From contig JARVGJ010000019.1 of NCBI GenBank assembly GCA_029762595.1, forward strand, positions 1-41,703: a DNA stretch of 41,703 nucleotides, written 5' to 3'. The first letter of the stretch is position 1. Every line of letters starts with the position of its first letter. The notes under the pieces were generated by a model, which was given only the letters and a program-made list of their open reading frames with translations, searched no databases and was not told the DNA's origin. Of the stretch, positions 12,497 to 37,506 are shown in pieces. The stretch comes from Methanolobus sp. (lineage in GTDB: Archaea > Halobacteriota > Methanosarcinia > Methanosarcinales > Methanosarcinaceae). A program made the translations under genes and the position numbers.

Positions 12497-12680
12497 ATGA
12501 CGATGGCTGAGAAAATAGAAAACGATCAAATTTCAGTTACCCGGCCCTGATTATTGTTTTAAACACGAATACCATTAACTTTCAATGTTACAGGACCTCA
12601 TGTTGAGATATTTATTTTAGCACTTTAAGACCTTATGAGCAATATATTTGAATTGTGCAACCGGATTTTGTGGTGTTGTC

Positions 12681-13826
12681 TTGATAATAATGATATTCGT
12701 TTGCGGCGAGGGACTGGGACATACCAGCAGGTGTATCTCCATAGGCAAGGAACTAAAGGCTGCAGGACATTGTGTTCACTTTGGAGCTTACGGATATTCA
12801 AAAGAACTTATCGAAAGAAAAGAGTTCATTGCACATGAAATACCTTCGGAGATTACCCTTGTGGGCAAGGCAGGCACCCTGAATCTGAAAAAGTCAATCC
12901 TTGCCAGCTTTAAGAGAGGACAGTTCCTTGGACTTATCAGGCTTCACAGGCTCCTCAGGAGAATCAGGCCTGACATAATCATATCCGACAGTTATTATAT
13001 GGGTATACTAAGCGCAAGGTCACGAAGCGTTCCGTCTTATCTTATCCTGAACCAGTCGAACATGGAGGAGTTCTTTAAGGGAAAAGGAATTTCAAGCAAA
13101 ATAGTCGCAGAGATAGTGAAAAAATTCTACATGGGCATGTTCAGGCTGGTTGATAAGGTCATAATACCAGACTATCCACCTCCGCATACAGTTTGCAGGA
13201 AGAATCTGGAATTTGGGAGTAATACCCTGAAGAAAGTTCTTTACTGCGGGCCCCTTGCAGGCACGTCCTTTGAAAAGACAGAAGCAAAGCCCTTGAGCAG
13301 CCCGCATGTGCTTTGTACAGTTGGGGGATTCGGATACCGGGAACCCATTTTCAGAAAAGTCATAGATGCCGCTGCAATGGATAGTACTATTAACTACACT
13401 CTTCTATGTGGCCCAAGTGTTGACCCCTCCGTTTTTGGAACGATAACCGAAAATGTACAGATCCTCAGGTTCATTGATGACCAGTTCCCATACCTGAAAG
13501 CCTCCGACGTGGTCATCGCTCCCGGTGGCCATAGCACCATGATGGAATCACTAAGCTTTGGCATTCCCATGATAACCGTGCCTGACCTCAATCACAACGA
13601 GCAACAGAACAACGCCTCAGTGATAGAAGAAGACGGGCTCGGTAAGAAAATTGACTATTCCACATCTCCCGGGGAGATACTTGAATACATCAGGCTCCTG
13701 ATGAATGATGAAACATACAGAAAACGCTTAGCTAAGATGCAGGAAATGGCAGAACAGCTGACTGCTACAGCAAATGTAAGGAGAGAGTTGGAGAAATATG
13801 GAGATGTAAGGATAGAGGAAAAATAA
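12681..13826 (+). CDS. MJ1255-type glycosyltransferase, second paralog
   Basis: This protein is clearly homologous to the product of 10166-11308. Shared segments include FVCGEGLGHTSRCISIGKEL, the ELIERKEF region, LCTVGGFGYREPIFRKVIDA and the donor-site block GGHSTMMESLSFGIPMITVP with DLNHNEQQNNA. TTG at 12681 is preferred over earlier starts because MIIMIFVCGEGLGHT then aligns residue for residue with the paralog, and GGTG sits a few bases upstream. An ATG at 12690 is also possible. It is about 381 aa. Transcription follows the PHP gene in the same direction after 184 bases. A hairpin at 13866-13889 probably ends the transcript. Confidence 0.85.
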   Translation: MIIMIFVCGEGLGHTSRCISIGKELKAAGHCVHFGAYGYSKELIERKEFIAHEIPSEITLVGKAGTLNLKKSILASFKRGQFLGLIRLHRLLRRIRPDIIISDSYYMGILSARSRSVPSYLILNQSNMEEFFKGKGISSKIVAEIVKKFYMGMFRLVDKVIIPDYPPPHTVCRKNLEFGSNTLKKVLYCGPLAGTSFEKTEAKPLSSPHVLCTVGGFGYREPIFRKVIDAAAMDSTINYTLLCGPSVDPSVFGTITENVQILRFIDDQFPYLKASDVVIAPGGHSTMMESLSFGIPMITVPDLNHNEQQNNASVIEEDGLGKKIDYSTSPGEILEYIRLLMNDETYRKRLAKMQEMAEQLTATANVRRELEKYGDVRIEEK

Positions 13827-13865: not shown

Positions 13866-13889
13866 AAACAATGTTATGAAACATTGTTT
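13866..13889 (+). terminator. Hairpin after the second glycosyltransferase gene
   Basis: AAACAATGTT at 13866-13875 pairs perfectly with AACATTGTTT at 13880-13889 around a 4-base loop, 40 bases after the stop codon. The position suggests a 3' end or mRNA-stabilising hairpin. Confidence 0.5.
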
Positions 13890-13927
13890 CTTATAGTTCT
13901 ATATAAGTTAAGAAACAAAACTACTGA

Positions 13928-14020
13928 TTATACGGATTAATTAACTAATATGTGCGGGGGTCTATAATCCGTAAGGCGCTGGGTGATGGAGTGGAGTATC
14001 AGCGCCTTGCAATCTTTTTT
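13928..14020 (+). ncRNA. Candidate small RNA with two stacked hairpins
   Basis: Two perfect inverted repeats lie end to end. TACGGATTA (13931-13939) pairs with TAATCCGTA (13965-13973), and AGGCGCTG (13974-13981) pairs with CAGCGCCT (14000-14007), so the helices would stack coaxially. Six T residues at 14015-14020 follow the second stem, as in a factor-independent 3' end. A box A-like CTATATAA at 13899-13906 is placed 25-30 bases before the first stem, predicting a start near 13927-13930 and an RNA of about 90 nt. The loops hold purine-rich, SD-like runs (GCGGGGG; GGTGATGGAG). No open reading frame of note crosses it. It lies between the glycosyltransferase terminator and tRNA-Gly. No known RNA family was recognised. 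Confidence 0.5.
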
Positions 14021-14066
14021 ACGATATGTCCACATTCCATGACAAAACATTTAATTAAAAGAAAAG

Positions 14067-14138
14067 TGCGCCGACCGGGATTCGAACCCGGGTTTAAGGC
14101 TTGGAAGGCCTCAGTCATAGCCACTAGACCATCAGCGC
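14067..14138 (-). tRNA. tRNA-Gly (anticodon TCC)
   Basis: The minus strand gives GCGCTGA paired with TCGGCGC, an anticodon arm GAGGC-CTTCCAA-GCCTT with anticodon TCC, and a T-arm with GGGTTCGAATCCC. The discriminator is A and no CCA is encoded. A box A-like sequence (TTATATCTT, minus strand, about 14168-14177) lies some 35 bases upstream. Confidence 0.95.
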
Positions 14139-14243
14139 AGTCTGGACATCCAATACAGTGTTTTTTAAGATATAACGTTTTCGCCTGATAATGAATGTAG
14201 CGAGGAATCATATTTAAATCCCAAAGACATTCAATATTATCAA

Positions 14244-15263
14244 ATGAACCAGGAAACCGCAGATATAGCCATCCTGACAGAAAACATCAACAAAAGATAC
14301 GAACAGGTCACGGCTGTTAAGGATATCAGCATCACAGTACAGAAAGGTGAGCTTTTCGGCCTGCTCGGACCAAACGGGGCAGGCAAGTCCACACTAATAG
14401 GCATGCTTTCCACAATGCTTCGGCCAACTGGGGGAAACGCACATGTCTGGGGACATGACATACGTTCACAGTCCACAAAGGTGCGTATGTCAATAGGAGT
14501 TGTTTTCCAGGGAACCACAGTAGACAGAAAACTAACCGGACGCCAGAATCTGGACCTGCACGGCAGACTTTACGGAATGGGAAGAAAAGAGCGCAATGAA
14601 AGGATCGAAGAAGTACTCAGACTTGTGGAGCTGACAAACTGGGCCGATGAGGTCGTACAGAAATATTCAGGGGGTATGATACGCAGGCTTGAAATCGCAC
14701 GGGGAATGATGCACCATCCTAAAGTACTCTTTCTTGACGAACCAACACTTGGACTTGACCCACAGACAAGGAATCACATATGGGACTACATACGAAAGCT
14801 CAACCGGGAAAAGAACATAACAATGGTCCTCACCACCCACTACATGGAAGAGGCAGACATGCTCTGCAACCGCATAGCCATAATTGACCATGGGGAGATA
14901 ATCGCCCTTGGAACACCCGGAGAACTGAAGTCAGAACTTGGAGGCGATATAATAACCCTTAAGTTTCCGGGAGAAGAAGACGCTGCAAAGATGGCAGAAA
15001 AATATAATGGGAATCCGGATTTTAAGGAAATGACAAGCTCAGGCACCACTGTCCGCATAACATCAACAGACGGTGAAAGAGCTATCCCGGAACTGCTCCA
15101 GATGACCGCTGAACTAGGCCTTCGTATCGAATCTGTAAGCCTGCGCAAACCAACTCTTGATGATGTCTTCCTGCACCACACTGGAAAGAATATTCGCTAC
15201 ACAGGCCCAGATAATAGCAAAAGCAGACGTGGCATCCGGCACATGATGAAGAAGGAAAAATAA
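14244..15263 (+). CDS. DrrA-type ABC transporter ATP-binding protein
   Basis: The 339-aa protein is an ABC ATPase of the daunorubicin-resistance (DrrA) type. It has Walker A GPNGAGKST near residue 46, the signature YSGGMIRRLEIARG, Walker B VLFLDEPTLGLDP and the H-loop in TTHYMEEAD. After about residue 230 comes the extra C-terminal domain usual for this group. It would power an ABC-2 exporter, but no permease gene lies beside it: the next gene, uvrB, is convergent after 13 bases. The last 20 residues are very basic (SRRGIRHMMKKEK). A box A (TATTTAAAT, 14211-14219) only about 28 bases before the ATG predicts a leaderless or near-leaderless mRNA. Confidence 0.92.
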   Translation: MNQETADIAILTENINKRYEQVTAVKDISITVQKGELFGLLGPNGAGKSTLIGMLSTMLRPTGGNAHVWGHDIRSQSTKVRMSIGVVFQGTTVDRKLTGRQNLDLHGRLYGMGRKERNERIEEVLRLVELTNWADEVVQKYSGGMIRRLEIARGMMHHPKVLFLDEPTLGLDPQTRNHIWDYIRKLNREKNITMVLTTHYMEEADMLCNRIAIIDHGEIIALGTPGELKSELGGDIITLKFPGEEDAAKMAEKYNGNPDFKEMTSSGTTVRITSTDGERAIPELLQMTAELGLRIESVSLRKPTLDDVFLHHTGKNIRYTGPDNSKSRRGIRHMMKKEK

Positions 15264-22384: not shown

Positions 22385-22565
22385 GGCTCTGTAGAAATCC
22401 TTTCTTTATTAATAAACCACAGATAAATACGCATACACTCACCTCCTACGGAGTTGAGTGCCTGCTAAACAGTCGTTTAGCAGGTAACACAGATGAAAAA
22501 CATCTGCGTGCATCAGCGTTTATCTGTGGTTCATGAATTATTGATAATACGTTTTCTACAGAGCC
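22385..22565. mobile_element. MITE copy A, with inverted core
   Basis: A 181-bp element is bounded by GGCTCTGTAGAAA and TTTCTACAGAGCC. It is flanked by a perfect 8-bp target duplication, ATATTTAC (22377-22384 and 22566-22573), proof of transposition. Inside lie two hairpins, CACTCACC...GTTGAGTG and CCTGCTAAAC...GTTTAGCAGG, and a subterminal inverted repeat AACCACAGATAAA / TTTATCTGTGGTT. Compared with copies B-E, the core is turned around relative to the ends. There is no coding capacity. Confidence 0.85.
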
Positions 22566-23601: not shown

Positions 23602-24093
23602 TTATTTCAATCTCCTTTTTTTACATTGGCCGTTTGGCTCATTTTGTAAAATGGCTAATGTTATTTATTATTTATGAAAAACAAATTAGCATTGGTCATG
23701 GTCATGACATATTATAGAATCACATGTTAAAATAAGAATAATAAATCTTATGCATATTTCGGCTCTGTAGAAAACCTGTTATCAATAATTTATGAGCCGC
23801 AGATACACTCACCTCTTACAGAGTTGAGTGCCTGCTAAACCTTCGTTTAGCAGGTCACGCTGATGCACGCAGATATTTTTCATCTGTGCTTTATGAAAAA
23901 AGAAAGGATTTCTACAGAGCAAAATAAGCAGCATTTAGCATATTGACACAGCTTTGCAACAATTGCTTTAGTAATATTTAGAGGAAACTACATAATCATT
24001 AATGCTACTAAATCGCTAGATTTTAATACATGATACATTGTTTAACTATATTGTTATGATTAAAAGTGAATAAAATGAACAAAGGTATACAAA
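23602..24093. other. Intergenic region with MITE copy B and transporter promoter
   Basis: Besides MITE copy B, the 170 bases before the binding-protein gene contain a loose inverted repeat (TTTTAAT near 24019 with ATTAAAA near 24058), which could be an operator for metal control. No gene is seen. Confidence 0.3.
23761..23920. mobile_element. MITE copy B
   Basis: A 160-bp copy starts GGCTCTGTAGAAAACC and ends GGATTTCTACAGAGC, with the last C lost. The core has hairpins CACTCACC...GTTGAGTG and CCTGCTAAAC...GTTTAGCAGG. The right end resembles the left end of copy A and vice versa, while the core reads in the same direction as in A. No clear target duplication remains. Confidence 0.8.
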
Positions 24094-33951: not shown

Positions 33952-34112
33952 GGCTCTGTAGAAATCCCTTCTTTATTAATAAACCACATATGAAAAATAT
34001 CTGCGTTCATCAGCGTGACCTGCTAAACGAATGTTTAGCAGGCACTCAACTCTGTAAGAGGTGAGTGTATCTGCGGTTCACAAATCATTGAGAATAGGTT
34101 TTCTGCAGAACC
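33952..34112. mobile_element. MITE copy C
   Basis: A 161-bp element starts GGCTCTGTAGAAATCC and ends GGTTTTCTGCAGAACC. The core is CCTGCTAAAC...GTTTAGCAGG then CACTCAAC...GGTGAGTG, the reverse of copy B, with ends to match. The flanks TTTATTTT and TTTGTTTT may be a worn 8-bp target duplication. Confidence 0.8.
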
Positions 34113-35190: not shown

Positions 35191-35311
35191 TAGAAGTATC
35201 TGCATGCATCAGCGTTACCTGCTAAAGGGATGTTTAGCAGGCACTCAACTCTGTAAGAGATGAGTGTATCTACGGTTCAGAAATTATTGATAATAGGTTT
35301 TCTAAAGAACC
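35191..35311. mobile_element. MITE copy D, left end missing
   Basis: The sequence matches copy C from ATCAGCGT through CCTGCTAAA...GTTTAGCAGG, CACTCAAC...GATGAGTG and AATTATTGATAATAGG to a worn right end TTTTCTAAAGAACC. The left terminal repeat has been lost. Confidence 0.75.
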
Positions 35312-36649: not shown

Positions 36650-36705
36650 ATGTGTTGTTAGTTTGCTTTGCATCTGAATCGAATGCAAGCAAACTAACAA
36701 CATAT
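36650..36705. repeat. Long hairpin between convergent genes
   Basis: The left arm TGTTGTTAGTTTGC then TTTGCAT (36653-36673) pairs with ATGCAA then GCAAACTAACAACA (36683-36702), with one bulged T and a 9-base loop. Three further pairs extend the base to 36650/36705. The stem of about 23 bp is much longer than an ordinary terminator. It lies between the AI-2E-family gene and the PRC-barrel gene, which converge. Confidence 0.75.
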
Positions 36706-37081: not shown

Positions 37082-37506
37082 TTATTTACCCCCATACTAA
37101 ATAAAAATATGAGAATGACGTTATTTATACCTTATGATTCTGCATGGGATGGATACAATAATAATGATTTATCAAAAAAATACTATCATTGTTTATATTT
37201 CATACATTGCCTGTCTTCAATGATAAAACTCATTGTGCAGATATGCCAATTTTATTCCTCTTTTCAAAAAGAGCATTTTTACATAGTCGAATATGTATCT
37301 GAATAAAAATTATAATTAATGATTTGTGAACCGCAGATACACTCACCTCTTACAGAGTTGAGTGCCTGCTAAACCTCCGTTTAGCAGGTAACGCTGATAA
37401 ACGCTGATATAAGTGAATGTATGAAGCTCATCATCAATGAATTGAAGAGTCAGATAATTTCCATAAGTTATATGTAATAATAATATTAATACATGCTTTG
37501 AGTACT
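37082..37506. other. Intergenic region with MITE copy E
   Basis: It holds the PRC-barrel promoter on the left, MITE copy E in the middle and, on the right, AT-rich boxes (TTATATG near 37470) for the ferritin-like gene. No gene is seen. Confidence 0.45.
37321..37412. mobile_element. MITE copy E, both ends missing
   Basis: Only the core remains: GAACCGCAGATA, CACTCACC...GTTGAGTG, CCTGCTAAAC...GTTTAGCAGG and ACGCTGAT. It reads in the same direction as copy B. The terminal repeats are gone. Confidence 0.7.

Follow-up and report, generated by a model that had tools for sequence, protein, structure and literature searches.

The window analysed here is the whole of a 41,703-base contig, one of the 58 contigs of a 2.43-Mb Methanolobus genome, and the element described below lies in a 239-nt gap between two convergent genes, a glycosyltransferase gene that ends at 13826 on the forward strand and a tRNA-Gly(TCC) gene on the reverse strand (coordinates of all features in Table 1). 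The gene content and the relatives of the genome agree with Methanosarcinaceae. Homologues of the glycosyltransferase gene occur in 77 of 112 genomes of the family, and the next forward-strand gene past the gap encodes an ABC-transporter ATPase (at 14244). A first-pass annotation of this DNA described the gap as having no reading frame; taken literally this is not so, as a GTG-initiated frame of 78 aa (13952-14188) passes through it. The frame is probably spurious, because it crosses the tRNA gene antisense and its part ahead of the tRNA has no match in Pfam; for the latter reason a protein reading of it was rejected. At the gathering score, tRNA is the sole Rfam family reached in the window, all matches in the gap being sub-threshold.

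Table 1. Features of the gap between the glycosyltransferase and tRNA-Gly(TCC) genes, and of its borders, in window coordinates.
Feature	Position	Strand	Remarks
Glycosyltransferase gene, GT28-type C-terminal domain	12648..13826	+	Pfam PF04101, E 4e-17; transcript heads toward the element
Hairpin A, 10-bp perfect stem with 4-nt loop, running into T-rich tract TTGTTTCTT	13866..13892	+	folding z -3.9
Perfect 10-bp dyad TTGTTTCTTA N15 TAAGAAACAA	13884..13918	+	brackets the TATA-like core; overlap with hairpin A
TATA-like core TTCTATATAAG without BRE	13897..13907	+	box A of the first-pass annotation
Region of stem 1 (arms 13931-13939/13965-13973)	13926..13973	+	repeats exact; other fold predicted
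Stem 2, 12-pair G+C-rich hairpin with 16-nt loop	13971..14010	+	robust part
T6 tract after stem 2	14015..14020	+	U-tract 3'-end signal
T-rich 3' flank of tRNA-Gly, CTTTTCTTTTAATTAAATGTTTTG on the - strand	14042..14065	-	probable tRNA terminator
tRNA-Gly(TCC)	14066..14138	-	convergent with the glycosyltransferase gene

The gap contains four perfect stems of 9-10 bp each. Two of these had been drawn in the first-pass annotation as perfect stems placed end to end and followed by a T6 tail, and both inverted repeats and the T6 are present: stem 1 has 9 bp around a 25-nt loop, and stem 2 in its originally drawn form (13973-13981/14000-14008) has 9 bp around an 18-nt loop. Inverted repeats in the gap exceed chance by a test picked after the sequence had been seen; the four-stem content has a P of about 0.001, and first-order Markov simulations of such a gap had at least three 8-bp stems in 0.13% of cases and a directly adjacent pair of stems in 0.17%. 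Stems 1 and 2 are the only directly adjacent pair (at least 8 bp each) in the 41.7-kb window, and such a pair turned up in 2 of 12 simulated windows. Hairpin A proper (13866-13889) lies upstream of them and, with the T-rich tract that it runs into, is a candidate proximal terminator of the glycosyltransferase gene. The position of the dyad around the TATA-like core would fit an operator. Another operator candidate, the palindrome GAAACANTGTTTC that overlaps the dyad, was rejected, as it occurs at two places in the genome, equal to the count for the reversed-pattern control.

Folding of the predicted transcript (13926-14020) gave an MFE of -27.2 kcal/mol, as compared with -21.4 for the two stacked stems of the first-pass annotation, which are 5.8 kcal/mol worse than the optimum. 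Stem 2 is retained and extended (13971-13982/13999-14010) with pairing probability near 1, and on its own has a z of -4.2, matched by 0 of 500 shuffles. Stem 1 is disfavoured because the extended stem 2 takes bases of its 3' arm: its pairs reach a probability of no more than 0.10 at 37 C and near 0 at 10-25 C, its segment alone has a z of -0.8, and in the predicted full transcript it is replaced by a weak 6-bp 5' helix, GAUUAU/AUAAUC (13926-13931/13964-13969). Of the stacked pair, then, stem 2 holds firmly and stem 1 does not, and of the two stable stem-loops to be expected of a small RNA like M. mazei sRNA154 one is found. The predicted transcript as a whole folds better than 97% of shuffles (z -2.2, P 0.026), and the entire interval first annotated, flanks included, has a z of -0.95. 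An origin of stem 2 in the 5' half of tRNA-Gly was rejected, as the local alignment of the two is not significant (P 0.05-0.19).

Elements comparable to stem 2 with its T6, defined as a stem of at least 8 bp with at least 4 G/C and a T5 within 15 nt, are over-represented in this genome, with 5 in 137 kb against 0.4 expected (about 13-fold, in a small sample). Most of those in the 137 kb sampled lie 3' of an ORF, the nearest upstream ORF ends being at -1, 44, 50, 147 and 293 nt. The congeners have 13 such elements in 156 kb, where the same model, scaled up, predicts about 0.9; several lie 43-76 nt past a gene. Glycosyltransferase homologues in two congeners (L088 and L090) have a hairpin and T run of unrelated sequence 222 and 173 nt past their stop codons, and a third (L076) has an unrelated hairpin within about 225 nt of the stop; most congener homologues lack such a hairpin. 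A consensus terminator scan of 19 kb found no excess (11 against 15 expected), and since it allowed loops of at most 8 nt it was blind to stem 2. Two kinds of hairpin were noted along the way. On the reverse strand, at 36653-36702 of the window, a perfect hairpin of 16 bp has a T-rich tail, and hairpins of the form GTTGCA/TGCAAC followed by T runs recur in congeners (L075:758, L077:3388, L079:772, L088:2871, L089:4057, L090:2885), several of them 43-76 nt past genes; the latter are possibly a spreading terminator-like element.

Termination at U tracts is documented in archaea, most of the published terminators lacking a hairpin and a subset having one; over a third of genes have multiple terminators in series and the median 3' UTR is 85 nt in M. 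mazei (PMC7237163, PMC8716108). The T6 at 14015 falls within the 4-7 range of such tracts and lies 189 nt past the stop at 13826 on the same strand. We favour, with about even confidence, the reading that the glycosyltransferase transcript of this convergent gene pair has its 3' end, or terminator region, at the element. Polymerase leaving the gene would first encounter hairpin A and TTGTTTCTT as a proximal signal, some 40-66 nt past the stop codon, and at 147-194 nt stem 2 and U6 as a distal signal. U tracts are what the archaeal polymerase and the 3'-end nuclease aCPSF1 respond to, and the hairpin would help to release the RNA or protect its end. As the element stops 45 nt short of the tRNA-Gly end, read-through transcription would be kept from running antisense over the tRNA. 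Given the enrichment 3' of genes, the elements of L088 and L090 and the published 3'-end maps, the simplest account is a distal terminator by which the convergent tRNA-Gly is spared. What is established is the hairpin with its U tract, the convergent arrangement of the genes and the enrichment of such elements 3' of genes in this genome; we infer termination at the element and its purpose. Several points speak against a terminator: stem 2 exceeds what termination needs, published archaeal terminators being mostly hairpin-free, and hairpin A with its T-rich tract could already end the transcript, which would leave stem 2 unexplained; the rarity of such hairpins after the congener homologues and the outcome of the consensus scan also count against it.

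As a terminator, the feature would resemble those mapped in Haloferax volcanii and M. mazei (PMC7237163) and linked to aCPSF1 (PMC8716108) in having an intergenic U tract of 4-7 past a gene end, several consecutive signals for one gene and an upstream hairpin, as a subset of them does; it differs in a hairpin that is unusually strong and G+C-rich. The feature is probably ordinary, a hairpin and U-tract 3'-end element. It would add one more hairpin-assisted U-tract terminator in a methanogen and would suggest that the role of 3'-end hairpins in the genus deserves attention, given the excess of these elements in the sampled stretches.

The same hairpin and T6 could instead close a species-specific intergenic small RNA of ~95 nt that starts at ~13926-13928 from the TATA-like core and acts in trans through its loops like M. 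mazei sRNA154, or that derives from the 3' UTR and shares the terminator of the gene; we regard this as possible, though doubtful. In its favour, besides the better-than-shuffled fold of the predicted transcript, TATATAA at 13900 sits 19-22 nt ahead of a possible purine start (13926-13927) where the structure has its foot, which fits the promoter-to-start distance of 19-22 nt given for Methanolobus psychrophilus (PMC5378194). In M. psychrophilus, 195 starts of small RNAs were counted between genes, in 125-129 intergenic regions (PMC5378194), and sRNA154 likewise has two stem-loops (PMC5867862).

The promoter itself argues against a small RNA of this kind. A BRE followed by a TATA box is the arrangement expected of an archaeal promoter, and a 16-column model trained on sequences upstream of 28 tRNA genes in the same genome has it as its consensus too (CGAAAAATTTATATA). 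By TATA-only score, box A ranks in the top 0.5% of sites in the window; by the full promoter score it reaches about -1 to -4 in its best registers, which is background level, whereas 23 of the 28 tRNA upstream regions score at least 4 when left out of training. The TATA core of the annotated box A is real and its BRE absent, and the promoter with BRE and TATA box that an sRNA154-like small RNA should own was not found. Since 5 of the 28 tRNA regions also have no recognisable site, the absent BRE makes a promoter here weaker, not impossible. Among 40-nt stretches of the same composition, 1.7% should contain TATATAA and 8.5% any TATA variant. The tRNA-trained model found no convincing forward-strand promoter ahead of the hairpin in the gap; its strong forward-strand match at 14043 (score 11) lies past the T6 and coincides with the reverse complement of the T-rich 3' flank of the tRNA.

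The loops fare similarly. They had been proposed to pair, through SD-like sequences, with anti-SD-like targets, and their pairing with the 16S 3' end proved no better than that of shuffled loops (fractions 0.10 and 0.49), a further point against a small RNA, as is the loss of stem 1 from the predicted fold. Of the complete small transcription unit first annotated, the stable hairpin and its U tail survive and could plausibly form the 3' end of an RNA; the promoter has no BRE and stem 1 is not predicted. M. mazei sRNA154 and sRNA41 are intergenic, as is the element here, but sRNA154 has two stem-loops with functional loops, where stem 1 here is unstable, and holds an anti-RBS sequence in loop 2, where the loops here are RBS-like; sRNA154 is also highly conserved in Methanosarcina, and the element is without conservation (PMC5867862). 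The intergenic small RNAs of M. psychrophilus R15, which is probably of the same genus, share the promoter-to-start distance, and BRE and TATA were predicted for 81.6% of the primary transcripts of that species (PMC5378194), unlike the BRE-less element here. A small RNA at this locus would be lineage-specific, with no known targets. We consider quite improbable a more elaborate form, in which such a species-specific RNA would have its promoter wrapped by the dyad as a possible operator over the TATA core, a 5' half switching between the mutually exclusive stem 1 and extended stem 2, and expression under one condition, and would act through its G-rich loops.

A C/D or H/ACA box guide RNA is very improbable and was rejected, the defining features of both classes being absent. 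The gap does hold a C-box-like GUGAUGG at 13983 (one mismatch), but no D box follows it on the forward strand, as one would in a C/D RNA of 50-70 nt with the boxes near its ends, the only CUGA preceding it; stem 2 has no internal pocket or loop, no ACA stands past the foot of the hairpin, and Rfam matches are limited to tRNA.

Homologues of the element were sought by blastn and with a covariance model built from the single sequence of the element; no match was accepted in the 237 other genomes of the class, so that the element is confined to its own genome (1 of 238), within which blastn found no further copy. It was not found in viral contigs by exact patterns or in phages by blastn, and plasmids gave chance-level blastn matches only. 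Two matches were rejected: one exact-pattern match among genome contigs (in Sulfuricella), an unrelated sequence, and a covariance-model match in L097, whose similar loop and stem are attributed to chance, as they fall within repeated DNA that appears to encode a repeat protein. The absence from the class, viral contigs and phages counts against a small RNA, as does the lack of the conservation among relatives that one like sRNA154 should have. In 18 congeners (ABC match beside the tRNA) the tRNA-ABC neighbourhood is preserved, yet the element is absent from their syntenic places, and no congener has a two-stem element within 1.3 kb of the tRNA. The first-pass annotation had named loss of the stems in close relatives that keep the flanking genes as evidence against its small RNA, and at genus level this is the situation, the ABC protein of the nearest relative compared having an identity of only about 79%. 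Because the closest genomes are that distant, the absence shows non-conservation at genus level and not lack of function.

The 3' side of tRNA-Gly(TCC) is a turnover and integration hot spot in the genus. Its sequence differs in almost every congener, with integrase genes or related remnants in several; in L047 a tyrosine integrase gene (270-1175; PF00589, E 1e-17) adjoins the 3' end of the tRNA. Congener glycosyltransferase homologues are followed by other sequence, and in several relatives the gene lies 1.4-6 kb from the tRNA, compared with 0.24 kb here. The gap could accordingly be non-functional intergenic sequence whose repeats are leftovers of a lost island or chance, which the kept tRNA-Gly/ABC order beside a variable flank, the shorter distance and the absence of the element everywhere else searched would all suit. 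We think this unlikely: four perfect stems in 239 nt are above chance, stem 2 and its T6 fit a class of elements enriched 3' of genes, no repeat copy was found in the genome, and Pfam gave no match for the sole frame of the gap.

An intergenic repeat of ~100 nt is dispersed elsewhere in the window, in either orientation, at 22461-22484, 23831-23854, 34019-34042, 35218-35241 and 37365-37388. Its core is the palindrome CCTGCTAAAC-N4-GTTTAGCAGG, next to which the flanks are conserved (CACTCAACTCTGTAAGAGGTGAGTGTATCTGCGGTT). Exact copies of the core number 21 in this genome and 4 in one congener (G045), with none in the other 28 relatives searched. The repeat resembles a REP-like or small non-autonomous mobile element that has spread recently.
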